The notes under the pieces are model-generated. The model did not search any database. It saw nothing but the letters and a program-made list of their open reading frames with translations, and was not told the origin of the DNA. Positions 24,915-64,000 of a DNA stretch of 64,000 nucleotides are shown here, one piece after another (position 1 is the first letter of the stretch; each line of letters opens with the position of its first letter). Origin of the DNA: Haloplanus rubicundus (lineage in GTDB: Archaea; Halobacteriota; Halobacteria; Halobacteriales; Haloferacaceae); assembly GCF_003342675.1 (NCBI RefSeq), contig NZ_CP031149.1:1-64000 (forward strand). Reading direction: 5' to 3'. A program made the translations under genes and the position numbers.

Positions 24915-24918
24915 ATGA
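24626..24918. repeat. MITE-like unit with 19-bp perfect terminal inverted repeats
   Basis: TCATAACAACTTGGGAAAG at 24626-24644 is exactly inverted at 24900-24918. Inside each end is a further short hairpin built on GGAAAG/CTTTCC. The right end overlaps the start codon of the next gene at 24915. It may be a small non-autonomous transposon or a long structured leader. Confidence 0.5.
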
Positions 24919-27730: not shown

Positions 27731-28229
27731 ACACCCCCCGGAGTGTGAATGGAATCCTTGATCGACACCCCTCGGTGTGAATGGGTGAATAGATGACGAA
27801 TTGATATAACCACACCCCCACACCCCTCAGTGTGAATGGTGTACCACCGCTCATACCAGGTTTAATCTTTCGTGATCAACGTCAGTACGGTCACGACTGG
27901 TAGTCTCCCTTCGCTTCGCTCAGCCATCGGCTGCGGCGTAACCGCCTCGCCTTGTAGAACTACTCTACTCGGAGGGCTGTTTATGCCGGAATATAATAAA
28001 ATTAACTACTAGTGCGGTAGCGGTGCGGTTGTCGGTGCAGTTGAACACACTGGACAGACAACACAGCAACAAATACCGCCCGGTGGTAAGGATATCTTTA
28101 GGTACAGACGGTCTAGAGGGCGTTCGCGACATTACTGCCGTGTGTTCTCTTTCCGGTTAGACTGAGGAACGAGTGTTAATTTAGTATCACTGTGTCCTAT
28201 GGTGGACCATTCACACCGAGGGGTGTGGG
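27731..28229. other. Replication origin: inverted ORB-like sites around an AT-rich core
   Basis: Three ORB-like sites of the form ACACCCCTCGGTGTGAATGG (27731-27752, 27765-27786, 27820-27842) point one way. A fourth, CCATTCACACCGAGGGGTGT at 28207-28229, points the other way. Between them is AT-rich DNA, notably AATATAATAAAATTAACTA near 27992-28010, a fair duplex-unwinding candidate. This matches the known haloarchaeal plan of ORBs flanking an unwinding element next to orc1/cdc6. Confidence 0.8.
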
Positions 28230-28234
28230 AGGTA

Positions 28235-29500: not shown

Positions 29501-29629
29501 ATTGAGGACATCCGATCCCATTCACATAAAGGTAACCGACCCTCGATGTGATAGGCCAATCCATATTCACGTTTTAGAAGAACTGAGAGTGCGGTTCCGT
29601 ATGTATATAAATTCCGGAAAGTAAAGGAT

Positions 29630-29844
29630 CCCATTCACACTCCGGGGGGCAAACTGGGGATTCCATTCACACCGAGGGGGGTCAAATCGAGGACCCCATT
29701 CTCACTCCGGGGTCAAACTGGATATCCCATTCACACCGAGGGGGGTCAAATCGAGGACCCCATTCTCACTCCGGGGTCAAACTGGATATCCCATTCACAC
29801 CGAGGGGGGTCAAATCGAGGACCCCATTCACACTGAGGGGTGCT
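29630..29844. repeat. Array of seven ORB-like iterons with a 64-bp tandem unit
   Basis: Seven sites of the form CCATTCACACCGAGGGG or CCATTCTCACTCCGGGG, centred about 32 bases apart and all in one orientation, start near 29630, 29661, 29694, 29725, 29757, 29789 and 29821. Two alternating subtypes form a 64-base tandem repeat. They lie upstream of orc and probably control both initiation and orc transcription. Confidence 0.8.
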
Positions 29845-48617: not shown

Positions 48618-51600
48618 CTAGTCGAGATCATTGAGGAGATCTGGAGCCCTCACGAACATCCACTCGCCATCTTCACCCCAGATTGCCTCAGTGAGTTTCT
48701 CGTAGGTCCTGTTGTTTCGCTTGGGAGGTAGTTCGTCGATCCGACCAGCGTTTGCGAGGGCTCGGACAATATCCCATGCGACTGATAAATTGGGCACAAT
48801 CCAGATTCTCTTCTCGACATCGAATCTGTTGAAGTCGTCGTAGTGTTTGACAATTAGTGAGGGATGGATGTTCGAGACTGCTTCTCCGATGACGACGGGA
48901 TCTTCGCCGTCGTAGCCGACAGCGTCCGGCTTCACATCGGTCCCATGAAGTGGCACGTATCTCTTGACAAAATACTGATTATTGGGATCGCGCGCGAGTG
49001 ATCGAGCGAATGCCTCGACCATCACCTTGTGGTAGGTCTTCTCGTTCACATCGCCCTGGTCTTCGCCGGTCGCGACTTTCGCTCCACACGCACGCTGACC
49101 GTCGCGAGTCACGGTGTAGTAGACTCGCAGACTCTCGGTCTGTTTCTCGAGATAGCCAAGGTCGATGAGTTTCTCCTCGTCTACCTCATCGAACTGACTC
49201 TTTATCCGCTCCATGGAGTCCACGACATCGTAGGCAGGGTGGTTGCCGTTGACTGTGGTGACGATCGCAGCGAGGAAGTGGCGTTCTTCAACTGTCAGAT
49301 TCTCAGTTATGGCTGTTTGAGTTTCTCCGTCCTTTTCATCGACACTCTCAGTAGCGCTTTCGTCGGGGGTATCAGACGCATTAGGGCTGTCTGCATTGTC
49401 GACAGTTATTCCCCTCTCCTCATCGCTGTGTGCCTCGTTGTTTTCGGACGGGTCTTCGGCGTCGGGATCAACTCCACCGTAGAGGAAGTTGTCAACCCGA
49501 TCTCCCAGATCTCTGTCTTTTTTTTCGCCTGCCTGTGGAACCCCACCATCGGTCTCGCTTTCATCGGTCGCTTCGCGCGGTGGATGACCTGACTCGAGGT
49601 CGTCTGCGGACACTCGACTAGCCTCTGACTCGGCCTGATCGTCGTGCCTGCCTGATCGGGGTCGCCCTCTTGTGTCGGGGGTATCTGGCCTTCCTGTGCC
49701 GAGTTGTGTCTGTGGGTTGGACTTGGTCTGTTTGTGTCCACTTTCTCCGTCTTCGTTGTCACCAGGCACCCCCACTTCGAAGTCATCTTGGGAGTCATTT
49801 TGACTACCGTTGATGCCGCGCCTGTGTTGTGTGGAGAGTTGCTCTCCGGAAGCGCCGGTGTTGCTCCCCGGGAGCAGGCAGTAGTCCCGCCGCGTTGCAC
49901 GGGTGATCTCCGCCTTGATTTCGCTGAAGACATACCCCTGCTTCGACACGGTCTTATCGAATACGGGGTCGTCGGATTTGCTGTGACCCTCGGGAATATC
50001 GACGGGCTTCATCGTCACGATTTCAGGGATATCAGTCATGAAGCCGGTGTCAGGGAGTTGCGCGATCCACTTCCCGCGCGGGAACGACGTGATCCGATCG
50101 ACGAGTTCCTCATCTTCGATGCCCTCGTGGAATAACGTCATCAAGAGCTCGTCGTCGACGGCGAGCTTGCCGATGAGTTTCGTATTGATATTCCGCAGTA
50201 TTTCCTTGTACGAGGAGACGTCGAGGGCATCGCTCTTGACTTGCTCCGCGAAGTGAATGATGAATTCGAGGGAGAGCCCGAACTCACGCCCGTCAGGAAT
50301 CATGTCGTCGCGCACCAGTTCGGACTGGAGCATTGCCGCGGCTTCGTCGATGATGATGTTGATAACGTATCCATCCTCAACCGGCGGGGTGTCCCCAACC
50401 CGATGACGGAGGCGAGCGCCCGACCAGATGTAGTCGAGCAGCAGGAAGGTGAACAGATCGCTTGAGGCGGGCCGGAGATCGCCCGTGTCGATGATGACCA
50501 CCTTGTTCGAGGCGAGGATATCCTGTATATCGAACATCGGGGACTGATCGGCGTAGCAGCCCTTCTCGTCGTCCCATTCGGGAACGAAATTGAGGATACG
50601 CCAGATGAAATCTCGCTCGGCGAGCTTGGTGATACGGTTCATTACGGCGTCGATCGACGACTTGAACCGCTGCTTGTCGGCATGGAGATGTCGCGTGAGT
50701 GAGAGTTCGAGAGTCTCGTCGCTCACGCTGGGTATCTCTCCCTGTGCCCGTACCTTCTCGTCCTCGCTCCCTTTTTGCTGCATCTTGAAGGCAACCTGAA
50801 ACAGGTCCTTGATCGGCCATGCGTCCCGGCCGTACACGGGATCGAACATCGCCTTGATCAGGTTATTGAGGATCTCCTGAGCGACGAACGCCTGTTGAGT
50901 CATTTCGCGGCCCAGCACGTACACGAGGAGTTCATTGTAGCGGTCGACTTTCTCTTGGACTGCGACCGTACGTGAGACGCCGGCGGCGAGTTGCGGACGG
51001 ATGTCGAAGTACGGGAAGGCGAGCACCTCGTCGTTCGGCCCCGGAACGGGGATGTGGACGACGTCGTCGAGGTTGCCGAATTTCTTGAAGTGCGCTTTCT
51101 TGTACTCCTCTGCCATCGTCCCACCTTTCCGGTCGAAAACGAAAATGGGGCCGTCGAACGACTCGTAGGCCGACAGCGTATCGCTGATCATCGTCGTCGT
51201 CTTCCCGGCACCAGTCGTCGCTGCGCGGAGGATGTGGTGCGTTAGTTGTCCTGCATTGAGACGAATTGGAATATTTGGTCGGCTGTCGACGGCGGTCTCG
51301 GCATTCCCGATGTGCATTCCGGAGTCGTACTGCGAGAGCAGGTCCTCGTCTGTCGCTGTGAGTGGCGAACGAGCGTCGGGCGATCCACCCGATGATCCAC
51401 GTGAGGCCCGCGGGAGGGCGCCTGTATGCGGGACGACGGCAAAGTTCGCGAGCTCGTCGGGAGAGGCACAGATGAGCGGATTACCTTTGCTGAAGCGTCC
51501 GGAGAGGCCGCTGGTGCTGGCCTGTCGTGTGTGGCACAGCCGGGTGAACTCTTTGTCGTTGTCCCCGAGAAGCTCGCCCTCGATGCCATAGTACGGTCCT

Positions 51601-52910
51601 GAGAGCGACGTGAAGGCGTTCGAGATGCTTTGGATAGTCTGTTCGTTACAAGCAGCTCGGAGTGTGAGGTCAAACGTTGTAGTCGGTTGTTTGCGGTCGA
51701 TCTGTTCCATCCGCGACCCCGTAATCTTGTCATCCTCGCCGGTGCTGACGGACCCTCCGACCTGCTCGGAGATGTCACCACGGTGGAGGTTCTGGCGTTC
51801 TTGATCGGATGTTCCGAACGCCTGCCGCAAAAACTCGTTTTTGAACGCGGAGAGCGTTCCGTGGTTACCCATCTTGAGGTTCCGTTTGTGGTTTTCAGCC
51901 TCTCTAGTCCAATCAGAGCGTGGCTTGAAGATAGTCTGAAAGATGAATGGGTCGTCGGTGTGGACGGCCTGTTCAAGAAGCACGCTGAGGGGAGAGCGAT
52001 ACTGGTCGTCACGGTCGACAGACAAATTGCTGAACGGCCGGAGTAACGTCATCCAGTCGTCTTTTTTCGAGGAGATGCCCTTCCAGCGAACGAGCGAGGG
52101 ACGGTTTTCCTCACTGACCTCTTCGGGACGGAGCGGAACGCCTTCCCTGTTGAGCTGCTCTTCGGCTTCTTTGGAGGAGGGTTCGTTTCCGCTCCCGATT
52201 TCTTCGTCAGTGAAGACCTCAGGGTCCTCGAAGCCGGCGAGGTTCTCGAGGTCGACAATGTCGTCGAGCGTCGCAATACGCCGCCCACCAACGCGGGCGT
52301 TCCCGTCTTCTGAGGCGAACGCTGCAACGGGATTGAATGGGACGATTTCGAACTCGAAGGATTCGGGATACATCGCGGCGACGTTCGCAGCGAGCGTCTT
52401 GAATGCGGTCGCCTCGTAAGGCGTCACTGAGATATAGAAGTCGAATCGCTTCGTGTTCCGCGGCTTGTGGATAATGAACTCGAAAGTCTTCTTATAGCTC
52501 TTGAGCCCGAGACGGGCTTTGAGATTGAATCGCGAGGTTCCCGTCACGCCTGCACGGTAGAATCCAAACAGTCCCTCGATGACGTTCCCGGGCGTGACTT
52601 GCTTGCGGGCGGGTGAGATATGGATATACGGCCGAGCTTCGACAGGATCGCTGAGTTTCTTTCCTGGCCCGGTCGTGCTCTTGCCTTCGTAGGAGGCGAG
52701 ACGGTCCTCTGATTCTCCCTCCGCTTCGTCGTCAGTCCCGCTCTCTGTCGACGGGACGCGGTCACCCTCGGTTGATCCTTCCCGGCTCTGACCGGGGAAC
52801 AACCGTTCGGTCGAATCTTCCGTTGATGTCGACGACATAGAGTTGATGCGGCCGTGGAGGGTGTCTTGCCCGTTGTCGTCCTTTTCGGAGTCTGGGGGCG
52901 AGGCAGTCAT
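48618..52910 (-). CDS. VirD4/TraD-like conjugative ATPase with C-terminal nuclease-like domain
   Basis: A 1,430-residue ATPase of the VirD4/HerA-FtsK group, which in conjugation feeds DNA to the type IV channel. The start at 52910 follows GGAGG. A disordered acidic head precedes a VirB4/TraD-like region (TSRFNLKARLGLKSYKKTFE). Walker A is AATTGAGKTTTM (about 567) and Walker B is VINIIIDEAA (about 853), with TGFMTDIPEIVTM after. An acidic linker leads to a winged-helix-like segment (LTVEERHFLAAIVTTVNG) and a terminal domain with KPDAVGYDGEDPVVIGEAVS (about 1327-1346), resembling a PD-(D/E)xK fold. It lacks the usual lysine, so catalysis is uncertain. Confidence 0.85.
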   Translation of the reverse strand: MTASPPDSEKDDNGQDTLHGRINSMSSTSTEDSTERLFPGQSREGSTEGDRVPSTESGTDDEAEGESEDRLASYEGKSTTGPGKKLSDPVEARPYIHISPARKQVTPGNVIEGLFGFYRAGVTGTSRFNLKARLGLKSYKKTFEFIIHKPRNTKRFDFYISVTPYEATAFKTLAANVAAMYPESFEFEIVPFNPVAAFASEDGNARVGGRRIATLDDIVDLENLAGFEDPEVFTDEEIGSGNEPSSKEAEEQLNREGVPLRPEEVSEENRPSLVRWKGISSKKDDWMTLLRPFSNLSVDRDDQYRSPLSVLLEQAVHTDDPFIFQTIFKPRSDWTREAENHKRNLKMGNHGTLSAFKNEFLRQAFGTSDQERQNLHRGDISEQVGGSVSTGEDDKITGSRMEQIDRKQPTTTFDLTLRAACNEQTIQSISNAFTSLSGPYYGIEGELLGDNDKEFTRLCHTRQASTSGLSGRFSKGNPLICASPDELANFAVVPHTGALPRASRGSSGGSPDARSPLTATDEDLLSQYDSGMHIGNAETAVDSRPNIPIRLNAGQLTHHILRAATTGAGKTTTMISDTLSAYESFDGPIFVFDRKGGTMAEEYKKAHFKKFGNLDDVVHIPVPGPNDEVLAFPYFDIRPQLAAGVSRTVAVQEKVDRYNELLVYVLGREMTQQAFVAQEILNNLIKAMFDPVYGRDAWPIKDLFQVAFKMQQKGSEDEKVRAQGEIPSVSDETLELSLTRHLHADKQRFKSSIDAVMNRITKLAERDFIWRILNFVPEWDDEKGCYADQSPMFDIQDILASNKVVIIDTGDLRPASSDLFTFLLLDYIWSGARLRHRVGDTPPVEDGYVINIIIDEAAAMLQSELVRDDMIPDGREFGLSLEFIIHFAEQVKSDALDVSSYKEILRNINTKLIGKLAVDDELLMTLFHEGIEDEELVDRITSFPRGKWIAQLPDTGFMTDIPEIVTMKPVDIPEGHSKSDDPVFDKTVSKQGYVFSEIKAEITRATRRDYCLLPGSNTGASGEQLSTQHRRGINGSQNDSQDDFEVGVPGDNEDGESGHKQTKSNPQTQLGTGRPDTPDTRGRPRSGRHDDQAESEASRVSADDLESGHPPREATDESETDGGVPQAGEKKDRDLGDRVDNFLYGGVDPDAEDPSENNEAHSDEERGITVDNADSPNASDTPDESATESVDEKDGETQTAITENLTVEERHFLAAIVTTVNGNHPAYDVVDSMERIKSQFDEVDEEKLIDLGYLEKQTESLRVYYTVTRDGQRACGAKVATGEDQGDVNEKTYHKVMVEAFARSLARDPNNQYFVKRYVPLHGTDVKPDAVGYDGEDPVVIGEAVSNIHPSLIVKHYDDFNRFDVEKRIWIVPNLSVAWDIVRALANAGRIDELPPKRNNRTYEKLTEAIWGEDGEWMFVRAPDLLNDLD

Positions 52911-53157
52911 TATCCTCCGGCCTCCCCACGGGCAGACACACTCTGCCCTCTCCACTGTGCAATGGTCGGGACGCACTCCACCCGCTGGGTCATTCGCTTG
53001 GTTAGACGCGTAGTTGTAACGTTTGTTAGCATATTTGTACTATGTTATGTCTGTTAATTCAGTCGCTCCCGGCCTCTGGAATGCTCCCCCCAAAATAGAG
53101 CCCAATTGAACGTTCGGGCACGGGTGGAAGGGAGAGTACTCGTCCCGTATAGACGGC

Positions 53158-53502
53158 TTACGGGGTGGCGATCCACTCCAACACGGACACGAAGATCGTG
53201 ACGCCGAAGTAGAACACGGTCATCGCTCCGCCACCGATCAGGAGCTTCATTCCGTTCTCGGCCCTATCGCTGTTCCTCCGGGCGGTGAACCACACGATTG
53301 CACCGAGGGAGAGCGCCACGAGGCCAGCGTACTTCAGCACAAGCAGGACCACGTCGTAGAGGTTGCTCATGATGTCTTCGAAGCCGGAAGGAGGCGCTGC
53401 CTGTGCGGCGACTGGATCGACGAACAGGACTAGGGCGAGGATTCCCACGACAAGTGGGGTGCTGTGCTTTCTCAGGAGTTGTTTTGTCCGGAGGATGCTC
53501 AT
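53158..53502 (-). CDS. VirB2/TrbC-like pilin candidate
   Basis: A 114-residue protein. Basic head, hydrophobic signal (LVVGILALVLFVDPVAAQA), then a short mature chain with two membrane helices (YDVVLLVLKYAGLVALSLGA and GGGAMTVFYFGVTIFVSVLE) joined by a basic loop (RRNSDRAENG). Size, cleavable signal and hairpin topology are those of VirB2/TrbC conjugative pilins. The start at 53502 is chosen because the longer form adds an unrelated Cys-rich stretch. It precedes the coupling ATPase on the same strand. Confidence 0.7.
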   Translation of the reverse strand: MSILRTKQLLRKHSTPLVVGILALVLFVDPVAAQAAPPSGFEDIMSNLYDVVLLVLKYAGLVALSLGAIVWFTARRNSDRAENGMKLLIGGGAMTVFYFGVTIFVSVLEWIATP

Positions 53503-53698
53503 TGTTACCCACCCGTACGAGGTGGGAGTTTGACATAAAGAAGAGCAGATTACATTGAATGTAGAGAATGTAAAACGCCGGTCTAAGGGTGTCAACGGGC
53601 GGGAATATGGGGGTTTTCACCGGAACAGTTATGCGTTAACCCGTAGCACGCCCTTTTATGGATCAGGAAAACACCCTCCTGTGTCTCCTTGTCCATAG

Positions 53699-53989
53699 GT
53701 GATTGTAGTGCCTAAAAACAACTCCAACCCTACCGCAGAAAACGACGGTGCCGAGTCCGAACCCGAGACGGCGATCAACGTTGCCCTCCACCCGCCGACG
53801 AAGACGCGGCTGACCGCCTACAAGAATAAAAACCCAATAAAAAACCTGTCGTACAACGAAGCGATTGAGAAAGTTCTCGATGAGATCGGCTTCCCGCCGG
53901 TTGAAGAAATCGAGAACCAGTACCTTCCGTCACTAGCGGGCGGGAGCTCCACTCAGTCAGAAGAAGAACGCTCTAACAACTCCGCCTGA
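53699..53989 (+). CDS. Ribbon-helix-helix-like regulator
   Basis: A 96-residue protein starting at GTG 53699 (or GTG 53708). TAINVALHPPTKTRLTAYKN, then LSYNEAIEKVLDEIGF, fits the beta-helix-helix pattern of ribbon-helix-helix DNA-binding proteins; the ends are disordered and acidic. It is read opposite to the T4SS genes on either side and has CTTTTATGG about 45 bases upstream. It may repress the transfer genes or mark the transfer origin. Confidence 0.6.
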   Translation: MIVVPKNNSNPTAENDGAESEPETAINVALHPPTKTRLTAYKNKNPIKNLSYNEAIEKVLDEIGFPPVEEIENQYLPSLAGGSSTQSEEERSNNSA

Positions 53990-54183
53990 GACGAGCGGCC
54001 CAGTCGCGGTACCACGTTCTCCTTCTTACGATGGTTCGATTCGTTTCTGACATCACACGGTCTTAGGGAGAGCTGGTCGTAGGGCGTCGTTTCAGATTGG
54101 TTCCTTGGGGTCGTAGTCTTCTTGCTTGCGGTCGCAATCTCCATCACAATCTCTTCTGGCGTCCGGCCGTTGTTCGTTGCCCG

Positions 54184-54687
54184 TCATAGCAAAATCCACG
54201 CGAAGACGTTGATTACGTTGCCTCCGATGCTTCCACCGATGAGAGTGAGCCCCATTACAATTCCACGTCGACCGCGAGACTCGGCGATCGAATCGCGGCT
54301 ACCAAACGCCCACCACGTCACGCCGATGATGAACAGGACAAGGCCCAAGCTGTGGAGGACGATGCTGAGGGCGGTGGCGAACTGGAACAGATTGCTCGCG
54401 TGAGCGCCAGTCACGGCGCCGTAGGGCCACCCAGCAGGGAGGAACTTGCTACCCAGGATGAACACGAGGACATCGTAGATGACGTCGATAGCGACGATCG
54501 CCATGTAGCCGGCTCCGCCGCCAACGGCCACCCCCCGGAAGCGGGCCATTGCTTGAGGATTTTTGCCGTAACCCCACCAACCGATGGTACCGATGAGGAG
54601 CGCGATGAGGGTTCCGTAGCGCCCGATGATAGTCGCGATTTCGAGGAGTTTGATTGCGGGCTCGGTAAATCCACTAACCGCGCTCAT
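54184..54687 (-). CDS. Polytopic membrane protein of the T4SS cluster
   Basis: A 167-residue protein with four predicted membrane helices (YGTLIALLIGTIGWWGYG, AVGGGAGYMAIVAIDVIYDV, ATALSIVLHSLGLVLFIIGV, GIVMGLTLIGGSIGGNVINV). Its ATG overlaps the TGA of the large surface protein (ATGA), so the two are translated together. No family is recognised. A channel component is inferred from context. Confidence 0.65.
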   Translation of the reverse strand: MSAVSGFTEPAIKLLEIATIIGRYGTLIALLIGTIGWWGYGKNPQAMARFRGVAVGGGAGYMAIVAIDVIYDVLVFILGSKFLPAGWPYGAVTGAHASNLFQFATALSIVLHSLGLVLFIIGVTWWAFGSRDSIAESRGRRGIVMGLTLIGGSIGGNVINVFAWILL

Positions 54688-57146
54688 CCTGAGTTCCCCT
54701 TGCTAGTGCGACGGCGCACCCACCACAAGGCAAAAACCCCGAGCGCGAGCCACTCAACGAAGATGAGGACATTGCTGATGGATGCCGAGATGTATTCCCC
54801 GACTGTGCCAACGGCCGCGAATTCGAGGGGTGAGGGCGGCAGGAGATAGAGAAGTTGGTCACCCTGGTAGTAGGGGTCGCTTGGTGACCAAAACACGTCG
54901 CCGCCGTAGCGAGCGCGGAGAACCGGTCCGTCCCATACGACCTTGGCACGGCCAGTACTGTCGGTCGTAACCGTTGCTGTCGTTCCATCATCTTGGGTGG
55001 CGGTGATTTTCTTATTCTTGACTGGGTCGCCACTGGTGTCCGTGAGAACGAGGACGCCCTCGTGATTCGCGCCGGTAGACGAGACATTAACATCGGTCAT
55101 CTGGAGGGTGGTGGACTCGTATGGTTGGGTGGAGACTTTGATCTGGTCTTCGCCGCTGACTCTCTTCCCGTTGAGAAGAGCACCGAACGGACTCGACCCC
55201 GTGGCGGTGGCAGTTTCACCTGTGTCGAGGTCACTTGATCTGACGTCTATGACGTGCTGTGTGTAGAGGTCGGTTGGCTGATCGTTATCAGGGTCGTTGA
55301 CGTTGGCCGGAAGTGGTGCTCCCGGGAGCGTCGTCGAAAGTTGACTGTCGACAGAACGGGTGTATCCCCATAGTTGATTGGCGTCGTCCTGTTGTGGGAA
55401 GGCGGCGGTGACGTTGGCGACGCCTGTCTCGTAGCGGTAGATGGCAGGCCACCGATCGCCGTAGGTGTGCGTTGAGTTGTAGGTGGTCGAACCACCTCCA
55501 GTGCTAACTTCGACCTCGTCGTTGCGAGAGACACCGTAGAACCGCCACGGGGAGATGATCTCGATTGTCTTGTCGCCAATGTCGATGCTGATCTTCCTCC
55601 AGGGGTCGCTCGGGAAGTCCTGGTTGCCCTTCCACCTCACGACGAGGCGGTCGTGACCTGCCCCGTCGATATGGGCGACGTCGATCTCGAGATTTGGAGA
55701 ATTCCAGTCCGTGATGGTGACCGGGACGCTGTATGTTGTCGTGTGAGTGTTGGTGCTCACGCTTGCTTGCGACCACGCACTGCATTTCGAGCTGCTGACG
55801 CCCCACCGAGTCCTGACTTCAGTGGTAACTTCAAGAGTCGCTGTCAGGGTGTAGTCCCCTCGAGGATATTCGAGATTGTCACTCGAGAGAGCTTCAATCG
55901 CGATCCAGGTTGTCTTGCCGAATCGGTTCCATTCAGAGTCGCCGGTGAATCCGGGACGATCGAGTCTGACGGACGTAACGTTCGCCGTCGAATTGAGGAG
56001 ATTGTATTTGGCCCACTCGGTCTTCGAGTACGTGTGAGAGTGGCTACTGCCACCACCGTGTGAGTGCGATATCGTACACGTGGAGCTGCGACTGAAATCC
56101 GGAGGGGCCTCGGCTCGGTGATCGTAGGGAATGTACGCACCCCGGGTGGGGGTTGACCCAGAAACGTATCTATCACGATACCAGGCACCACCAAAGAGGT
56201 CGTTCATTCCGACCCATGCCTTACGAACGGTGTTGAAGTTGCCCTGGCCCCACTTTTGTGACATGCTCGCGCCGCTCGAGGTGGGGTAAAGCTCTCCACC
56301 GTTCATTTTGGGGATGGCGATTCGATCTGAGTCCTGTGCGTATTTCGTGTATTGTTCGGCCGCGTGGAGGTTCCGAAAGATGGTGCTCTCATGTCTGGCT
56401 TGATGAACTAGGGCGTCGTCAGGGTTCGAGACGTAGAGCTCCTCGGCGGTTGGATCCCATTCCACGTCGGCGTTGTAGACGGGTCGCCACTCTCCGTACT
56501 GGTTGGTGACACGTACGAACCAATTACCGTCGTTGCTCTTTGGCCCGTCGTAGGTGTTGTTAGAGTGTACGTTGATGATCTGCGTGTCCGAGTAGAGAGG
56601 GATACTGGAGTAGGATTCCCACTCATCTTTGATCGGAATCGCGCTGTAACCGGAGAGATCCGTGATGTAGGTGTCGGCTGTTGTGGAATATCGAAGCGAT
56701 TGCGAGGGTGACAGTGTATCCTGTCCGATGTCGACCGGGTAAGCCGGGTAGTCGGTTCCGTAGTAGCCGGAGTAAGTGATATCTTCGGGATCGACATCTA
56801 CGTCATTGTTCGCGAGGACGCGATAGGTTTCGTCGTAGCTCTTATCAACGCCAGGCTCGGGGCTCGGAATGTCATAGATCGGGTCAAGACCGGCAGCAAA
56901 GACAACGGTGACAGGTGCGATCAGGAGGCTGGTCGCCATGAGAACGGTCACGAAAATACGGAATCCCTGTGACTGGCCCTGGAGAGCGTTCGCAATCGGC
57001 TCCGTCAGTCCATTGGCCGGACTGGTGAGTTTCGGTGCACGCGCGGTGAAGGCGGCGGCAACACGTCCTCTGAGTGTATCTGTCCAGCTGTCCCTGTGTG
57101 TCGATTCAGTTTCCCCATCCCGCTGTGAATCAGCCTGAGAGGACAT
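54684..57146 (-). CDS. Large surface protein with membrane anchors, T4SS cluster
   Basis: An 820-residue protein. A basic/amphipathic head is followed by a membrane helix (FVTVLMATSLLIAPVTVVFA, about 68-87), a long extracytoplasmic part rich in Tyr, Thr and Ser, and a C-terminal helix (VLIFVEWLALGVFALWWV) with a basic RRRTSKG end. Around residues 690-750 an Ig-like/Big domain is seen (GVLVLTDTSGDPVKNKKITA, DSTGRAKVVWDGP). It has histidine- and serine-rich spots (SHSHGGGSSHSHTYSK). It could be an adhesin or pilus-tip-like protein for cell contact. It overlaps its neighbours by 17 and 4 bases. Confidence 0.75.
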   Translation of the reverse strand: MSSQADSQRDGETESTHRDSWTDTLRGRVAAAFTARAPKLTSPANGLTEPIANALQGQSQGFRIFVTVLMATSLLIAPVTVVFAAGLDPIYDIPSPEPGVDKSYDETYRVLANNDVDVDPEDITYSGYYGTDYPAYPVDIGQDTLSPSQSLRYSTTADTYITDLSGYSAIPIKDEWESYSSIPLYSDTQIINVHSNNTYDGPKSNDGNWFVRVTNQYGEWRPVYNADVEWDPTAEELYVSNPDDALVHQARHESTIFRNLHAAEQYTKYAQDSDRIAIPKMNGGELYPTSSGASMSQKWGQGNFNTVRKAWVGMNDLFGGAWYRDRYVSGSTPTRGAYIPYDHRAEAPPDFSRSSTCTISHSHGGGSSHSHTYSKTEWAKYNLLNSTANVTSVRLDRPGFTGDSEWNRFGKTTWIAIEALSSDNLEYPRGDYTLTATLEVTTEVRTRWGVSSSKCSAWSQASVSTNTHTTTYSVPVTITDWNSPNLEIDVAHIDGAGHDRLVVRWKGNQDFPSDPWRKISIDIGDKTIEIISPWRFYGVSRNDEVEVSTGGGSTTYNSTHTYGDRWPAIYRYETGVANVTAAFPQQDDANQLWGYTRSVDSQLSTTLPGAPLPANVNDPDNDQPTDLYTQHVIDVRSSDLDTGETATATGSSPFGALLNGKRVSGEDQIKVSTQPYESTTLQMTDVNVSSTGANHEGVLVLTDTSGDPVKNKKITATQDDGTTATVTTDSTGRAKVVWDGPVLRARYGGDVFWSPSDPYYQGDQLLYLLPPSPLEFAAVGTVGEYISASISNVLIFVEWLALGVFALWWVRRRTSKGNSG

Positions 57147-57648
57147 ACTGAATCAGGTTGATGAAGAGCGAAAACGCGGCCCCGATGATTGCGAGGACGA
57201 CCCCGGTTGTTACCATCACGAATCCGCGCCGGCGATTGTTGATGGACGGACTGATGAAGTACGCCATACCGCCGACGACGAGCGTAATAAGACCCGTCCA
57301 CCAGATTGCCCTCCCGACCCACCCAGGGAGGGTAATAGCGGCCTTCAGATCGGAAATAAGCGAACTGAGGTCAGGACCGCTCTGAAGCGCGATAATTGAC
57401 GCTTGCTGTGTGTAGATATTGGTATGCAGGAGGGCGGTATCGACGATTGAATACAGGATGTGGCCGTGGAGTACACGCGTGAGCGTGGAGATGCCTCGAT
57501 AGTCCCCAAGGGGCACGACCGGGCCGGTGCTAGCTCGAATGTACGGGCCTATTACGTGGGCAGTATCAGGACTTGCCGACAGCGCTCCACTGACGAGGAT
57601 GCGCCAGTGGAGAAGCACTTCAATGGCCTCTGGTTGGAGGATGTTCAT
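57130..57648 (-). CDS. Membrane protein, first gene of surface-protein operon
   Basis: A 172-residue protein. The start MNILQPEAIEVLLHWRILVS at 57648 is preferred; a longer frame adds Cys-rich sequence. The C-terminal half has two helices (AIWWTGLITLVVGGMAYFIS and GFVMVTTGVVLAIIGAAFSL) separated by a basic turn (PSINNRRRG), the same hairpin plan as the VirB2-like protein at 53158. Its end overlaps the start of the surface-protein gene. It may be a second pilin-like or channel protein. Confidence 0.65.
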   Translation of the reverse strand: MNILQPEAIEVLLHWRILVSGALSASPDTAHVIGPYIRASTGPVVPLGDYRGISTLTRVLHGHILYSIVDTALLHTNIYTQQASIIALQSGPDLSSLISDLKAAITLPGWVGRAIWWTGLITLVVGGMAYFISPSINNRRRGFVMVTTGVVLAIIGAAFSLFINLIQYVLSG

Positions 57649-57812
57649 GGGATAGCATTCGTCGCCAGCAGTTCTGACGACGCTTGGAGTGGCTAACCCG
57701 AGGCAGTCTGCGACCAAATATACTCTTTGTCTACATCCACCCCAGCCGCTACATCTGCCACATTTGTTGTAAACTTGAAAGTTCCTTAACCATCTACTGC
57801 TTATTCCGGTTG

Positions 57813-57992
57813 ATGGCAAGTCCTGCTGAACTCTGGTCACTCATCGGTGGACCGAGCGGCCGCTCGCTGCTCCGAGACGAGCCCGACTCGCTCGCACGTA
57901 TCGTCACGTGTGAGTATGACTGCGTTCGCCCGGTGAGCGTCGAGCAGGACCCCGTCCACTGCTTGGAAATGTTAGCACCCTCCCATGCCTGA
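57813..57992 (+). CDS. Small hypothetical protein heading the VirB-like operon
   Basis: A 59-residue protein (MASPAELWSLIGGPSGRSLL, RDEPDSLARIVTCEYDC). It ends 8 bases inside the next gene, so it is translationally coupled and likely real. A TATA-like CCTTAAC lies about 30 bases upstream of the ATG, in a divergent promoter region shared with the minus-strand membrane operon. Function is unknown. Confidence 0.55.
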   Translation: MASPAELWSLIGGPSGRSLLRDEPDSLARIVTCEYDCVRPVSVEQDPVHCLEMLAPSHA

Positions 57993-58650
57993 AATACAAG
58001 TCGACTGGCACTCTCGGAAAGAGGCTGACCGCCTACGCGATCTCCGTGATCGGCACGGGATGATCTGGCGCGGCGTCCTTCTCGAGGGAGCCAAACACGC
58101 AGAGAGCATAGATCTCCTCAAGGCCCTCGTTGAGTTACACCCGGCACTCGCACACTCGCGACCGGGAGACCACACTGGGGTTTCGGCCGAGCGAACGAAC
58201 GTCACTGAGCAACTACACGAGCAGGTCCGCGAACGGCAACATGCCCGCTCAACAACCGAACTCCCACCGTCTACGTTCACCGATGCGGGCATGGCCGCCA
58301 GCACGAACGGCAGTCGTGCCGATGACGGCGAGACTGACCGTGATGATGAGGGTAGAGAGAGTGTCGACGTGAGCGCTGCTGTCGCTCAGATACGGGAGAA
58401 CCGCACCCCTCGTACCAACCATGCACAGCAGTCGGTTGCGGCCGAACGCACTCGGACGAGAGAGTACCGACGCTGGGATGCTCAAGCGGCACAGGCCGCC
58501 GAAGCCGGAGAAGCACTTCATCCCGCGGACGCACACGACGATGTCGAAGATGTGCTTCGACACCCCGATGACCACGATGAGTGGGATGTCGTCGACCCGC
58601 GCTATGATTACGACGACTACGCCCGCGAATTTGACGGTGATTTCCGATGA
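57985..58650 (+). CDS. Putative transfer accessory protein (WRG motif)
   Basis: A 221-residue hydrophilic protein. The first 45 residues (VDWHSRKEADRLRDLRDRHG, MIWRGVLLEGAKH) form a basic-helical motif that recurs in the next gene (RKGLGLTWRGMMLKAEQRL). Such a short strand followed by helices is reminiscent of ribbon-helix-helix or MobC-like nicking accessory proteins. The remainder is disordered and charged, with a very acidic end (DPRYDYDDYAREFDGDF). Coupled by overlaps of 8 and 4 bases. The DNA-binding role is inferred. Confidence 0.55.
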   Translation: MPEIQVDWHSRKEADRLRDLRDRHGMIWRGVLLEGAKHAESIDLLKALVELHPALAHSRPGDHTGVSAERTNVTEQLHEQVRERQHARSTTELPPSTFTDAGMAASTNGSRADDGETDRDDEGRESVDVSAAVAQIRENRTPRTNHAQQSVAAERTRTREYRRWDAQAAQAAEAGEALHPADAHDDVEDVLRHPDDHDEWDVVDPRYDYDDYAREFDGDFR

Positions 58651-58952
58651 CTGGGACGACGAGCCCCTCGGATTACAATACGCGAATCAATATCCAATCT
58701 CAAGAGGAGTACGAGTGGTTGGATTCGGTTCGGAAAGGTCTCGGGCTGACCTGGCGTGGAATGATGCTGAAAGCCGAACAGCGACTTCTCGCTGCTGAAC
58801 GAACCTGGCCGCCGACAATCCGCACCCAAGATGTCGTTCCGGCCCCTGCTCAATCGAACGCCGACATCGAGGCGGAACACCGGGCCGAGGCAGCTACCGA
58901 ACCCGAGGCTGAGAGTGACGGTGACGCCGAAACCACGGAGGTGACGAGATGA
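58647..58952 (+). CDS. Small WRG-motif protein
   Basis: A 101-residue protein with YNTRINIQSQEEYEWLDSVR, KGLGLTWRGMMLKAEQRL at the N-terminus, similar to the preceding gene, and an Ala/Glu-rich acidic tail. It appears to be a short paralogue. Its ATG overlaps the previous stop (ATGA), and its own stop overlaps the VirB3-like start. It may form a hetero-complex with the longer paralogue. Confidence 0.6.
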   Translation: MTGTTSPSDYNTRINIQSQEEYEWLDSVRKGLGLTWRGMMLKAEQRLLAAERTWPPTIRTQDVVPAPAQSNADIEAEHRAEAATEPEAESDGDAETTEVTR

Positions 58953-59374
58953 GCCAGGACATTCCGGTTGCATCTCATCTTCTTGCCTCGAAGATGTTCG
59001 GCGTCTCAGCTCGGAAACTGGCTGAGTCGATGGGGCCGCCCCTTGTCGTCCCGCTCATTCTCTACACCATCGGCCTCCCACTACAGGTGACGATCCCGTT
59101 AGTGTTCGTCGGATTCCTAGTGGGACTGTTCATTTATAGCCGTACTCCACCGGGACAGCGTCCTCTACAATACGCCGGGGCGATGGCACGTCATCTGCGC
59201 GGGCGGACGAACTACGTCTGGAAGCCTCCAGAGCCAGCTCCGGGCGATCTCGCGTATCACGAACCCTTCGAGGCATGGATCACGGGACGTCCAGAGCCAG
59301 TCGTCGCTGACGAGGACGACGACCCTGACGCGGATTGGCCGATCGCGACGCATAGAGGACACACCAATGACTGA
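58949..59374 (+). CDS. VirB3/PrgI-like membrane protein
   Basis: A 141-residue protein with a close pair of membrane helices (PLVVPLILYTIGLPLQVTIP and LVFVGFLVGLFIYSRTPPGQ), then a basic segment (YAGAMARHLRGRTNYVWKPP) and an acidic tail. Short two-helix proteins directly before VirB4 are VirB3/TrbD/PrgI in known systems, where they anchor the ATPase. The call rests on topology and position. It overlaps both neighbours. Confidence 0.65.
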   Translation: MSQDIPVASHLLASKMFGVSARKLAESMGPPLVVPLILYTIGLPLQVTIPLVFVGFLVGLFIYSRTPPGQRPLQYAGAMARHLRGRTNYVWKPPEPAPGDLAYHEPFEAWITGRPEPVVADEDDDPDADWPIATHRGHTND

Positions 59375-60947
59375 ATACGAAGACGCCGGTTCGACGCTGG
59401 ACCTCATGGATTTCAAAAACGTCCGTGATGGGGGCGTCGTGGAGACGCCTACCACCTATGCAATGCTGCTCAAAATCCAGCCCCGTGAGTGGCTGATCCT
59501 CTCTGAGGAGCATAAAGAAAGCCTCTATCTGTCGTTCATAACGTTCCTGCGCGGGATACAATTCCCGGTACAGTTCCTCTCGATGACGGCAGCATACGAT
59601 CCCGAGCCCTACCTCAGGAAGTTCGACGAAGCCGAAAGTATGCTCATCAACTCGGGTGATGATGAGGAAGGCGACGACGCGCTGGGCGAGCTACCGCTGC
59701 TCGACTACGGTCGAAAGTACCACACTAACTGGCTTCGGGGCGTCGTCGATGTCGCGGAGATTCGCGATCGTGACTTCTACGTCGCGGTCGCAGTCGCAAA
59801 GGACGAGGAAGCCGACGATGGCCTCAAGACACAGATTCAGGCGCTCCTGCCCGGCGGGAACAACCTCGAGGTCGAAAACGAACCCGAGTATATTGAGGAA
59901 GTGAAGGCCCGCGCCCAGCGCGTGGCGTCGAAGCTCCCTCAGACGCAGGTGAAAGCCGAGATTCTGGACACTCGCCCGGTTGTCCTTGAGGTCCTCTACG
60001 AAGTCTACCACGGTGAGAAGCCGCCCATCTCGTTCGAGCAGGGTAGCTTCTCACGCCCACACGAGGAGGTACAGAAGGTTGCTGACGCGACCTATACTCC
60101 CGAAGAAGTGGCACAGGCAGAGGCGAATGAGGATGGTGGCTACGGGTTCGACCGCGCTTCTGACGACCATCCCGAAATCGAATATGGACGGGGTACCGAA
60201 CCGGGTGACGGACTGTTGGCGGCGGTCGGTGACGGTGGGTACGCACACCCGGACACTGTCGATCGCGTCTCTGGGTCGCGTATCCTGAGCTGGTACGCCC
60301 GGAACATCGGACCGATCGGATACGGTTCGCTCCCAGTCGTCCCGCGAGCGGTCTATGCGGGCGTGCTCTTGGGCCTCCTAAGCCTGATGCTCAGTGTGGG
60401 GGCGCTCGGCACGTTCCTCTGGTCAATGGAAATCACCGAACGTGGTACGGATACGTACTGGCTGTCTCGGACCGTGTCGTTCGCGACGGCTGCGGCGAGT
60501 CTGCCTGGATTTGTGCTGAGTCTCGTCGTGTTGTTTCCTTCGGAGCGAAGGACCAAGGGCCTCGCAGTGGCCGGCCTCGCAGCGGCAGGCTACGCGCTCA
60601 CTCTGTTCGTTGGGGCCTATCCCCAAGACTGGGACTCGAATCCCGCCGTGACCACGTTCACGATTGAGGTGTACGCGTTGGGCATCTTAGCACTGCTCGT
60701 CGCTGTCGTCCTCGCGGTACGTTCGCGACAGAAAATGGACCTCTCGAATCTAGCAGTTACATCCGATCCCGACGCGTCTGATGTGGCGACTGACGGTGGG
60801 GCCACAGGTACTCCTGCCACCCCCACCTGCGACTCCGACGATTCCGACGACTCTGACGACTCCGATATAGAGGCCCCTGACGCCGACACTGGCGCTGATT
60901 CCACGGCCCCCGGCACGACTGAAGACGAGACTGAGAAACCAACATGA
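59367..60947 (+). CDS. VirB4 N-terminal-domain-like membrane protein
   Basis: A 526-residue protein. Residues about 25-220 resemble the N-terminal domain of VirB4/TraC ATPases (VVETPTTYAMLLKIQPREWL, SLYLSFITFLRGIQFPVQFL), with no nucleotide-binding motif. A linker leads to four membrane helices at about 330-460 (VYAGVLLGLLSLMLSVGALG and others) and a tail rich in Asp and Ser with a DDSDDSDDSD run. It looks like a split, membrane-bound partner of the full VirB4 encoded next. Overlaps of 8 and 4 bases show tight coupling. Confidence 0.7.
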   Translation: MTEYEDAGSTLDLMDFKNVRDGGVVETPTTYAMLLKIQPREWLILSEEHKESLYLSFITFLRGIQFPVQFLSMTAAYDPEPYLRKFDEAESMLINSGDDEEGDDALGELPLLDYGRKYHTNWLRGVVDVAEIRDRDFYVAVAVAKDEEADDGLKTQIQALLPGGNNLEVENEPEYIEEVKARAQRVASKLPQTQVKAEILDTRPVVLEVLYEVYHGEKPPISFEQGSFSRPHEEVQKVADATYTPEEVAQAEANEDGGYGFDRASDDHPEIEYGRGTEPGDGLLAAVGDGGYAHPDTVDRVSGSRILSWYARNIGPIGYGSLPVVPRAVYAGVLLGLLSLMLSVGALGTFLWSMEITERGTDTYWLSRTVSFATAAASLPGFVLSLVVLFPSERRTKGLAVAGLAAAGYALTLFVGAYPQDWDSNPAVTTFTIEVYALGILALLVAVVLAVRSRQKMDLSNLAVTSDPDASDVATDGGATGTPATPTCDSDDSDDSDDSDIEAPDADTGADSTAPGTTEDETEKPT

Positions 60948-63268
60948 ACCCCATCAAGAAACTTCTTGGAAAGAACGACTCTGAGGAAGACGAATTTGAA
61001 CGCATCCCGATTGACGACCTCTCTGGCGAGGAAACACAGGTCGCACTCGAATACTTAGAACTCCTCGATCGGGAAGCCACCCGGAAGAACATCGAGTGGG
61101 CAGCCTACCAGCTCCAGGCCGACGAAGTCCCGCTCGTCTCCCCTATCGAATCTCTCGAAGAGCGAGAGACGCTTGATAAGAAGTTGGTCGCGCCCCGAGC
61201 AATGGAGCGCCATCCCGAGTTCCAGGTCCGCGAAGAGAAGATCACGCAAATCATGACCGTTACGGGCTTCCCTCGGAAGGTCAACCTCGGATGGCTCGTC
61301 CCGCTCACGATTGCGGACGTGAATCTCCGTCTCTCGCTACACATTACACCACGAGATCCGGCAAAGACACGTAAACAACTCCAGCGCCGCTACACGCAGA
61401 CCACGACGGCACTCACGCTCAAGTCCCGAAAGGGTCGGACGGATACCCATCAGGATGAATTAGAGCGCGAGGACCTCCTGCGGATTCTCCAAGACGTGAT
61501 TCGCGGGACAACGAAGGTCTTTGACATCGCCATCTACATCGAACTCGTCGCGGACTCGCACGAGGAACTCGAGGCGATGCGCGAACGCGTCGACACCATT
61601 CTCGCGGAACAGGACGTCGAGACGACGGTACTGCACCACCAGCAGGTGGAGGGCAACGGGACTATTGTTCCTCTTGCGACGGACACAATCAAGAACGTCC
61701 ATCCTATCCAGCTTGAGGCACTCGGAACACTGTTCAATCTCGTTGAGCCGCCGATCTACGACGAAGACGGCATTATGATGGGATTCGACGACACATCCCG
61801 CCCGGTTATCCTTGACCGCTACGCCCACTCTGGGTTCGGGATGACCATCTCGGGGAAGACTGGTGTTGGGAAATCCTACGCTAGGAAGCTCGAGATCTAC
61901 CGCCGACTGCTGGCCGACCCTACGGTACAGTGCATTCTGTTCGACCCGGCGGGCGATGACTACCCACAGTTCGCGAAAAAACTGGGTGGCGAGGTCATCC
62001 GCTTTGGTGGGTCGCAGAAGGTGAATCCGATGGACATCTCAGCTCCAACGGGCGAGATCGGTGCGTCCGAGGATACCTACCCGCTCACGGTGCGGTCTGT
62101 CGTTGAGATGATGAACACCCACTACGAAGACCGAGGCGGGCTCCCCGCTGCCGAAGAGGGCATGCTCATTCAGGCGACGCACTACGCGTACCTCTCGAAA
62201 GGCATCATCCTTGGCGAGTACGACACGTACGCGAACGAACCACCCGTCATCGACCGCCTCATTGAGGGTGTAGAAATTATCACAGAGGGAGGCTTCATGG
62301 AGGCACTCGACTCGGGCCTCGTCGACGAGGCGATGTTCGAGCATTTCCAGGGGTTGGATGTTCTTGACGAGGAGGGCAACCCCATCACGGAGACGTACAT
62401 TTCAGTGCCGATGGCAGTGTTCCAGCCATCGGAGAAACATCAGGAGGTCGCGGAAGCCTTAGAACCGAAGTTCGAGTCTTTCAAGCCGGGTGGAATCAAC
62501 GCGAACCTGAACGGCCAAACGAACCTCGAACTGAACTCGCGGCTCGTCGTGATGGATATGAGTTCGTTTGCGGACACCGGCGAGATGCCCCTGATTTTGC
62601 ACGCGATGCTTCAGTGGGCGTATCTCGAGGCCAAGCGGTCGCCGGATCGTTTCGACGTGACCTTCGACGAGGCCCACTACCTCTTGGGGCGGGAGTCCAC
62701 ACGGGACCTAATTAACCTATTCATCAGGCACGCACGCCACTACGACGCGGGCCTCACCCTGATGAGTCAGACCGCTCACGAGTTCCTACGGACTGACGCT
62801 CGCCGTGAAATCTACGAGAACTGTGACATCAAGCTCCTGTTCTACGCCCAGTCGGTGGCAGACGCGACAAAGGAGTACTTCGATCTTTCACCGGCAGAGG
62901 TGAAGTACCTCCAATCGGCCCCACGTGGACAGAACTCCGGGTACTCCGGGTGTCTGCTGTCGACGACAAAACATGGGCGACGCCGTCTCGAGATCCATTC
63001 TGGTGACTTCGAGCACTACATGATCGACGACGATCTCGACCCGTGGGACTACATTGAGGAAATTGAGGGATCGATGCGCCCCGATGACACTGATTCCGAT
63101 GTGGACCTCGATCTCGAGATGTCGGAAATGCCTGCGGTGTCGAACCGTGAGCTGGACATGGAGCTGTCAAGCGAATTTGCACAAGCCCGGACGACACAAG
63201 AGCAGTCCGAGAGTATCACTGACGACGACACGACGAACTCCTTGACATCCGGCTCTGGTGACCGTTGA
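60944..63268 (+). CDS. VirB4-like type IV secretion ATPase
   Basis: A 774-residue ATPase that would power assembly of, and transfer through, the channel. The N-terminal part (residues 1-290) follows VirB4/TraC (DVNLRLSLHITPRDPAKTRK, VFDIAIYIELVADSHEELEA). Walker A is SGKTGVGKSYAR (about 305) and Walker B is VTFDEAHYLL (about 573). LTLMSQTAHEFL and the YAQSVADATKEYFDLSPAEV C-terminal region complete the RecA-like core. The tail is acidic. It overlaps its neighbours (ATGA and TGATG). Confidence 0.93.
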   Translation: MNPIKKLLGKNDSEEDEFERIPIDDLSGEETQVALEYLELLDREATRKNIEWAAYQLQADEVPLVSPIESLEERETLDKKLVAPRAMERHPEFQVREEKITQIMTVTGFPRKVNLGWLVPLTIADVNLRLSLHITPRDPAKTRKQLQRRYTQTTTALTLKSRKGRTDTHQDELEREDLLRILQDVIRGTTKVFDIAIYIELVADSHEELEAMRERVDTILAEQDVETTVLHHQQVEGNGTIVPLATDTIKNVHPIQLEALGTLFNLVEPPIYDEDGIMMGFDDTSRPVILDRYAHSGFGMTISGKTGVGKSYARKLEIYRRLLADPTVQCILFDPAGDDYPQFAKKLGGEVIRFGGSQKVNPMDISAPTGEIGASEDTYPLTVRSVVEMMNTHYEDRGGLPAAEEGMLIQATHYAYLSKGIILGEYDTYANEPPVIDRLIEGVEIITEGGFMEALDSGLVDEAMFEHFQGLDVLDEEGNPITETYISVPMAVFQPSEKHQEVAEALEPKFESFKPGGINANLNGQTNLELNSRLVVMDMSSFADTGEMPLILHAMLQWAYLEAKRSPDRFDVTFDEAHYLLGRESTRDLINLFIRHARHYDAGLTLMSQTAHEFLRTDARREIYENCDIKLLFYAQSVADATKEYFDLSPAEVKYLQSAPRGQNSGYSGCLLSTTKHGRRRLEIHSGDFEHYMIDDDLDPWDYIEEIEGSMRPDDTDSDVDLDLEMSEMPAVSNRELDMELSSEFAQARTTQEQSESITDDDTTNSLTSGSGDR

Positions 63269-64000
63269 TGGCGATGCCGATACCGGTCGAACCGCTTCTG
63301 CTGATGACGTTTGTCCGCCTCCAACTCGGGCTGGGTGACCTTCCTGAGGCGATAGCGGAGGCGCTCTTTGGGTGGATCGCGGACACGGCCGACGCGATTG
63401 CGACCGAACTATCGACGGCACTGACGGACGAACTCATCAAGGGTCTGCTGAAGGTCCCGAACCCGTATGACTCAGCGACGGCGGGCAACGCGTGGACTGG
63501 AATGTTCGAGATATCGCTCGTCTTGCTTCCGATAATGATCGCGCTCGCGCTCATCGCGTGGCCGTTCAGCGAAGACCGTGAATCCGGGTTGTTGGATCTC
63601 GTCGTCCGTGTCGTGATGATCTTGCTGTTTATTGGCATCTCCCAGCCTGCATGGGGGTTCGCGATTGATGCGACAAACGCTGTAACGGTTGCCATCTTGA
63701 ACCTTGACCCGGGTAGTGGTGTCAATTATGGGTACGAGAACGGGCTTGTTGGAGCTTCCACCACATTCGGTGTGTGGGTGCTGAAGTTCGTCGTCTCGAT
63801 AGTCGCCGCGATTCTCGCAATCCTAGCACTGTTACTGTCGATATTCTTCCTGCTCCTGCGCTGGTTCATGATCTGGATGGCCTACATCGGGACTCCGTTC
63901 TTCGCGGTTGTCTGGTTCGCAGGGCGCGGCCCGCTGAAGTCCGTCGGCAGCGTCGGCGCGACGTTCATGCGGATGGGTGTGTTTTCCCTGTTAGCTGGCC
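63268..64000 (+). CDS. VirB6/TrbL-like polytopic membrane protein (3' end outside window)
   Basis: An open frame from the ATG that overlaps the VirB4 stop (TGATG) to the window end, at least 244 codons. It starts MAMPIPVEPLLLMTFVRLQL. Several membrane helices are visible (ISLVLLPIMIALALIAWPFS, VVRVVMILLFIGISQPAWGF, FVVSIVAAILAILALLLSIF, FLLLRWFMIWMAYIGTPFFA). Position after virB4 and the long helical bundle fit VirB6/TrbL, the channel's membrane core. Truncated by the window edge. Confidence 0.75.
   Translation, partial: MAMPIPVEPLLLMTFVRLQLGLGDLPEAIAEALFGWIADTADAIATELSTALTDELIKGLLKVPNPYDSATAGNAWTGMFEISLVLLPIMIALALIAWPFSEDRESGLLDLVVRVVMILLFIGISQPAWGFAIDATNAVTVAILNLDPGSGVNYGYENGLVGASTTFGVWVLKFVVSIVAAILAILALLLSIFFLLLRWFMIWMAYIGTPFFAVVWFAGRGPLKSVGSVGATFMRMGVFSLLAG

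Follow-up and report, generated by a model that had tools for sequence, protein, structure and literature searches.

Haloarchaea frequently exchange genes, even between genera, and cell fusion and vesicles are the usual explanations. Whether plasmids of these archaea also move from cell to cell by way of a type IV secretion system (T4SS) is the question raised by a divergent locus at positions 48618-64000 of the window, i.e., the 64,000-nucleotide stretch of Haloplanus rubicundus DNA analyzed here, which consists of bases 1-64000 of contig C3 of the host assembly. An earlier note had described VirB2-, VirB3-, VirB4-, VirB6- and VirD4-like genes at this place, together with a large surface protein and two further membrane proteins, and all of them are present there. 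The range given holds most of the T4SS locus but stops at the edge of the window: the VirB6 gene ends at 65124, and the locus runs on to about 66994 on the contig, where a membrane AAA+ ATPase gene ends. Conjugative transfer of the plasmid between haloarchaeal cells via this T4SS is in our view likely, and the locus constitutes a concrete set of genes making T4SS conjugation in haloarchaea testable.

VirB4 and the VirB3/VirB4 Module

The 774-amino-acid ATPase encoded at 60944..63268 on the plus strand is clearly a VirB4. It matched the NCBIfam family NF045971 (VirB4-like, CD1110 family; 1.3e-51, 175.8 bits), although below the 325-bit equivalog cut-off, and the remaining VirB4 families gave lower scores. 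When a profile based on eight relatives was compared with the PDB sequences, the sole match obtained was 4ag5, the structure of the Thermoanaerobacter VirB4 (2e-16), and HHalign aligned the protein with PrgJ of pCF10 at 98.4% (the HHalign figures given here and below are pairwise probabilities, which are not database-calibrated). The three HerA/DUF87 loci of the host genome reached at most 3% in this comparison, a rough control based on the longest open segments, the frame of which is possibly wrong. No match with CedB was found at E <= 1. The orthologues of this VirB4 are 61-93% identical, and 104 of the 292 genomes sampled from the class contain relatives (E <= 1e-20).

The earlier note had named, as an outcome that would contradict it, a grouping of the two ATPases with HerA-type repair or virus-packaging enzymes and small membrane proteins bearing no resemblance to a T4SS. 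The outcome speaks mostly for a T4SS: VirB4 and the VirB2, VirB3 and VirB6 proteins proved to be T4SS-like, whereas the ATPase domain of VirD4 remained ambiguous. The possibility that plasmid DNA is packaged into vesicles or virus-like particles, as in pR1SE, with the ATPases acting as packaging motors, would agree with the match between VirB4 and a PHROG family annotated as terminase large subunit (1.7e-15), with the VirB4/HerA-like ATPase carried by pR1SE-type plasmids (PMC10818511), and with the fact that some backbone proteins are common to virus families. It seems improbable, however, since that match amounts to only 57.7 bits, far below the VirB4-family score, the sole match among the PDB sequences is a VirB4, relatives of VirB2, VirB3 and VirB6 are encoded alongside, and no capsid family was matched by any of the ten proteins compared with PHROGs.

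Upstream of the VirB4 gene, on the same strand, are those of a VirB3/PrgI-like membrane protein (58949..59374) and a 526-amino-acid protein (59367..60947). The former gave no profile match of its own, and a Pfam scan of single orthologues was also empty. In a search of the 292 genomes with the PrgI profile (PF12666), however, genomes G076, G084, G102, G115, and G275 gave matches (E values of 3e-4 to 4e-3) at a distance of 1.6-1.9 kb from the VirB4 match, on its upstream side, and BLASTP ties the window protein to the PrgI-matched proteins of three of these five genomes (loci L053, L054, and L056). The gene also occupies the VirB3 position next to VirB4, the two being separated only by that of the 526-amino-acid protein, which belongs to the same module. 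The latter protein consists of an N-domain and a DUF7139 membrane domain (3.7e-22). In other haloarchaeal T4SSs, a single protein of about 1100 residues, a VirB4 fusion, was aligned by HHalign with VirB3 at residues 31-107 (67%), with the N-domain at 109-332 (95.6%) and with VirB4 at 390-1017 (100%). Since the three are matched in this order by one protein, the three window genes represent one module in split form, and the 526-amino-acid protein carries the domain fused between VirB3 and VirB4 elsewhere. The N-domain was also considered as a homologue of VirB4's own N-domain, a candidate relationship that was rejected, direct homology being undetected.

The VirB6-like channel protein, the gene of which starts at 63268 on the plus strand (63268..64000 in the window, to 65124 on the contig), has eight predicted membrane helices. 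TrbL_3 (PF19590) was matched by three of its 20 homologues (best E value 8e-5), while the plasmid's own VirB6 has no match. When the VirB3 and VirB6 profiles were compared with individual pCF10 sequences, nothing informative emerged. In the comparison with T4SS families proposed in the earlier note, VirB4 and VirB2 are directly supported; VirB3 and VirB6 are supported via their homologues together with gene order, and VirD4 via its homologues together with constant co-location.

Three VirB2-Type Proteins

The VirB2-type pilin gene is located at 53158..53502 on the minus strand. Its product shows a signal peptide ending in AAQ, followed by two membrane helices and a basic loop. PF04956 was matched by 16 of the 17 orthologues (best 1.9e-7), the score of the window protein itself (6e-5) lying under the 27.9-bit cut-off. 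Two further minus-strand genes flank that of the surface protein. The product of the first (57130..57648) has a unique N-terminal part and a two-helix C-terminus of the VirB2 type, which matches VirB2 at 96.9% by HHalign; that of the second (54184..54687) has four membrane helices, and its two halves match the VirB2 profile at 96.4% and 85.5%, respectively. In 40 control comparisons between four pilin-type profiles and ten segments of neighbouring membrane proteins, no figure exceeded 3.3%. Judging from these profile comparisons, the two proteins are further VirB2 relatives, one a hybrid and the other a tandem duplication. On this plasmid, the gene of a VirB2 pilin is accompanied by two paralogues derived from VirB2, whereas archaeal conjugative plasmids have been reported to lack genes for any recognisable relaxase or pilus protein (Beltran, 2023; PMC9905601). 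Matches of the VirB2 and VirB6 profiles among the PDB sequences were discarded as chance hits to low-complexity or designed proteins.

The VirD4-Like Coupling ATPase

The VirD4-like gene (48618..52910, minus strand) encodes a protein of 1430 amino acids from an internal ATG, or 1452 amino acids from the first GTG, with a long C-terminal extension; no transmembrane segment was predicted. Its sole match above cut-off was DUF87 (1.5e-5), but homologues pass curated VirD4-type cut-offs of Pfam: the pNG600 orthologue that of T4SS-DNA_transf (23.0 vs 20.1) and the L035 orthologue that of TrwB_AAD_bind (29.5 vs 20.5). The NCBIfam matches of the family are divided among TraD, CD1115, and HerA, and the match with CedB is weak (0.013, the CedB cut-off being 700 bits). 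Since the AlphaFold2 model is poor (mean predicted local distance difference test score, pLDDT, 51.6) and HerA, VirB4, TrwB, and Cag-beta were matched equally when its fold was searched, the fold was not used to decide on the identity of this protein. The protein is called a VirD4 because of its full-length homology with the pNG600 coupling protein (HHalign 100%) and its constant association with VirB4.

The C-terminal extension (48618-49268) shows a weak winged-helix match, followed by a conserved region. A nuclease reading of this C-terminus was suggested by a D...ExE-like motif present in a second, same-strand type of haloarchaeal T4SS (type B, several of the loci L033-L049; the window locus is of type A), but it was rejected, as the corresponding sequence in the window protein is GEAV and the reading finds no support in any profile.

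Several observations weigh against a conjugative machine. The ATPase domain of VirD4, taken alone, is inseparable from HerA and ambiguous with respect to VirB4, and the identities of VirB3 and VirB6 depend on homologues with low profile scores, together with context. VirB8, VirB9, VirB10, and VirB11 were not recognised by Pfam or NCBIfam in the scanned proteins of the locus. VirB9, VirB10, and VirB11 are lacking in many monoderm systems too. As regards the relaxase, none was found among the ten backbone proteins scanned, and the PF03432 family is absent from the host genome, other relaxase families not having been searched one by one. MOB-suite classified all of the PLSDB records carrying a VirD4 homologue (141/141) as non-mobilizable. 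Since no known relaxase was found, conjugation is inferred.

The lack of a relaxase would also suit a T4SS delivering proteins to other cells, the plasmid moving by other means, since proteobacterial T4SSs without relaxase are thought often to be protein movers; in the same study, however, archaea were treated as an exception in which unknown relaxases are likely (PMC3158045). Effector-like cargo was not recognised in the core, and a primase gene adjoins that of VirD4 in both T4SS types; protein delivery is considered very unlikely.

The Surface Protein

Between the two VirB2 relatives, the minus-strand gene 54684..57146 encodes an 820-amino-acid surface protein with an N-terminal hydrophobic segment (a signal or an anchor) and a C-terminal membrane helix. 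The AlphaFold2 model consists of an all-beta ectodomain (pLDDT 70, residues 130-770 being mostly at 70-90), which is predicted to be an Ig-like beta-sandwich. Among the 50 PDB matches listed for this model, there was no specific match with a solved fold; the generic ones included the Haloferax S-layer protein and complement-like Ig arrays, with template modelling (TM) scores of 0.1-0.15. In type-B loci, a 601-627-amino-acid membrane protein encoded between VirB2 and VirB6 was found to be homologous to the surface protein (HHalign 98.8%), and BLASTP also reaches pNG600 and L013. The presence of this homologue in type-B loci indicates that the surface protein belongs to the machine in more than one type of haloarchaeal T4SS.

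The conserved place of the surface protein in the T4SS module is also what one would expect if the plasmid spread by cell fusion with this protein as the fusogen, as proposed for integrated elements bearing Fsx1, which likewise carry VirB4 and TraG/VirD4 genes in haloarchaea (PMC9259645). This appears very unlikely in the present case: neither Fsx1 nor another relevant fusexin is among the 50 listed matches, the similarity with a class II viral fusion protein (TM 0.08) is at chance level, the other matches of the model are generic beta-sandwiches (TM about 0.1), and no more than two cysteines are invariant across the fourteen to sixteen aligned orthologues.

Comparison with Known Systems and Distribution

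VirB4 homologues, often accompanied by a coupling protein and lacking a relaxase, have been described in many archaea, and the FATA class was named in the same study (Guglielmini, 2011; PMC3158045). The window locus resembles the pCF10-type T4SS of monoderm bacteria (PrgI/PrgJ, MPF_FATA) in having a VirB4 of the same broad family (CD1110), a small VirB3-like gene upstream of it, VirB6, and VirD4. It differs in that its VirB4 scores below the equivalog cut-off, that neither a cell-wall hydrolase nor a relaxase was recognised in it, and that it adds the linker-domain/DUF7139 protein, multiple VirB2 proteins, and the Ig-like surface protein. With pNG500 and pNG600 of Haloarcula marismortui it shares a haloarchaeal plasmid setting and the VirB4 and VirD4 pair; the coupling protein of pNG600 is homologous over its full length, and the VirB4 of the pNG500 type shows within one protein the same VirB3, linker, and VirB4 order as the split window genes. 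The VirB4 proteins are only 25-26% identical, however, the gene order differs, and the coupling protein of pNG500, unlike that of the window, is shorter (738 amino acids) and has a strong TrwB domain. By description, the locus is also similar to Thermococcus pT33-3, a euryarchaeal plasmid in which no relaxase is recognised and the transfer of which depends on VirB4- and VirD4-like genes (2025 review; PMC12857230), and to the Fsx1-bearing elements, although no fusexin was recognised here. The locus, which the earlier note had held to be remarkable in haloarchaea, is real and conserved but less new than suggested, pNG500 having been classed as conjugative in 2011 (PMC3158045): VirB4 and coupling proteins have been known on haloarchaeal plasmids since then, and the window locus is most likely a conjugation machine of a new haloarchaeal variant.

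The archaeal Ced and Ted systems of Thermoproteota, which are T4SS derivatives with VirB2, VirB4, and VirB6 homologues (PMC9905601), raise the possibility that the window locus might be a domesticated importer in which DNA is taken up instead of being sent out. The locus is, however, plasmid-borne, with its own replicon genes, a coupling protein, VirB3, and a surface protein, and it spreads horizontally between families, unlike a chromosomal housekeeping importer, so that this option can be given very little credit.

In keeping with the proposal of the earlier note that the same gene order be sought on other plasmids, the core order is repeated on plasmids of Halorarius, Halorientalis, Haloglomus, Haloarcula, and Natrinema, and the plus-strand part occurs in further loci. 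Type B shares VirB2, the surface protein, VirB6, the AAA+ ATPase, VirB3, the linker domain, VirB4, and VirD4. The ratio of nonsynonymous to synonymous substitution rates (dN/dS) was 0.07-0.45 in every gene compared, which shows that purifying selection acts on all of them. For VirB4, identity with the counterparts in Halorarius, Halorientalis, Halonotius, and Halorubrum is 92-93%, but with that of a genome of the same genus it is only 84%, whereas RpoB' shows 82-89% identity with the same four genera; this incongruence means horizontal spread, a disregard of taxonomy that a transferring element would be expected to show. The defence genes and other cargo inserted between the VirB2 gene and that of the tandem pilin or the surface protein differ across related plasmids, on which CBASS, BREX, McrBC-like, and Piwi genes were found. 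Since the plasmids carry such defence genes, the machine may move immunity between archaea.

Two related loci were observed in the host genome itself: another T4SS locus of type A, divergent from that of the window, on the 225-kb contig (G000:C1:184646-200502; VirB4 63%) and a chromosomal VirD4-primase pair without VirB4 (G000:C2:1306202-1310059).

Proposed Mechanism

While the identity of the components is largely established, the export of DNA, the direction of transfer, the nicking step, the formation of a pilus and the roles of the parts are presumed in the following scheme. The plasmid would move between haloarchaeal cells by means of a T4SS whose relatives are the VirB3/VirB4 machines (PrgI/CD1110, MPF_FATA-like) found in monoderm bacteria. 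VirB3, the linker-domain protein, VirB4, and VirB6 would form the membrane translocation complex, to which VirD4 would hand the plasmid DNA. The three VirB2-type proteins (single, hybrid, and tandem) might build a short pilus or channel, and the Ig-like surface protein might span the S-layer and make or stabilise the contact between cells. The membrane-anchored AAA+ ATPase (65402-66994, plus strand; L002:2402-3994), which is Cdc48-like, lacks HExxH and is kept with the T4SS in both types, may take over the assembly or remodelling task of VirB11. DNA processing would probably involve either an unrecognised nicking enzyme or replication-linked single-stranded DNA, which the linked primase and RPA-like proteins could protect and convert. 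A bolder version, a self-transmissible plasmid family with a relaxase-less conjugation combining single-stranded DNA from plasmid replication, VirD4 with its long C-terminal extension, a pilus of three VirB2-type subunits including the tandem fusion, an Ig-like mating adhesin, and a Cdc48-like AAA+ ATPase replacing VirB11, is put forward tentatively, as it is rather unlikely to hold in every part.

Gene Organization and Plasmid Setting

The operons were described in the earlier note as divergent and coupled, and this arrangement was borne out on both strands. On the plus strand, ATGA overlaps occur at 58647, 58949, and 60944; at 59367 the overlap amounts to 8 bases, a TGATG is present at 63266-63270, and this chain is translationally coupled; the minus-strand genes overlap at 57130-57146 and 54684-54687. 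The plus-strand operon starts with two ribbon-helix-helix-like proteins (57985..58650 and 58647..58952), which are paralogues (HHalign 99.3%), and a small protein of the same kind is encoded on the plus strand at 53708..53989, where type-A orthologues also lie beside VirB2; these three folds were judged by eye from the sequence. The interval 53989-54184, which separates the VirB2 side from the tandem pilin or surface gene, corresponds to a cargo hotspot: it is nearly empty in the window, and the same position is occupied by CBASS, GTPase, ATPase, and other genes in L007, L014, L015, and L016. Downstream of the AAA+ ATPase gene, two genes for oligonucleotide-binding (OB)-fold proteins extend to 69239 on the plus strand. 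Next to the coupling-protein gene lies that of an archaeo-eukaryotic-type primase/polymerase (45898..48096, minus strand; PHROG DNA primase 4.8e-77, NrS-1 polymerase HBD 3.6e-23), and this placement is kept in other type-A plasmids, where the adjacent orthologues are 47-77% identical.

The host assembly amounts to 3.77 Mb in three contigs, C1 (225,191 bases), C2 (3,401,387 bases), which is evidently the chromosome, and C3 (147,062 bases), which is probably a plasmid. No exact overlap was found between the ends of C3; its close relatives are complete circular plasmids. The backbone includes an Orc1/Cdc6 gene (28235-29521), a primase gene and genes for ParA-like, sliding-clamp-like and RPA-like OB-fold proteins. 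On either side of orc1/cdc6 lies a CCATTCACAC...GGGG repeat, which is present seven times at 29625-29843 and in inverted orientation at 27733-27839. The earlier note had spoken of an origin matching the T4SS; the origin is there, but the region 27733-29843, with orc1/cdc6 and its inverted repeat families, is a typical haloarchaeal replication origin and not an origin of transfer (oriT), none of which was found.

The backbone also encodes conserved proteins at 24915-26726 and at 3167-4732; the latter, of 521 amino acids, has no Pfam match but matches phrog_13083, a virus-associated family of unknown function (4.3e-81). A helix-hairpin-helix gene and the gene of an 855-amino-acid protein without Pfam match (12556-16016) lie in a stretch whose GC content (64-69%) is well above that of the remaining window. 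A protein encoded at L004:6861-8081 shows a weak match with the CoiA N-terminus, and its relatives adjoin orc1/cdc6 in three related plasmids. A polyphosphate kinase gene is also carried by the plasmid (38847-41267).

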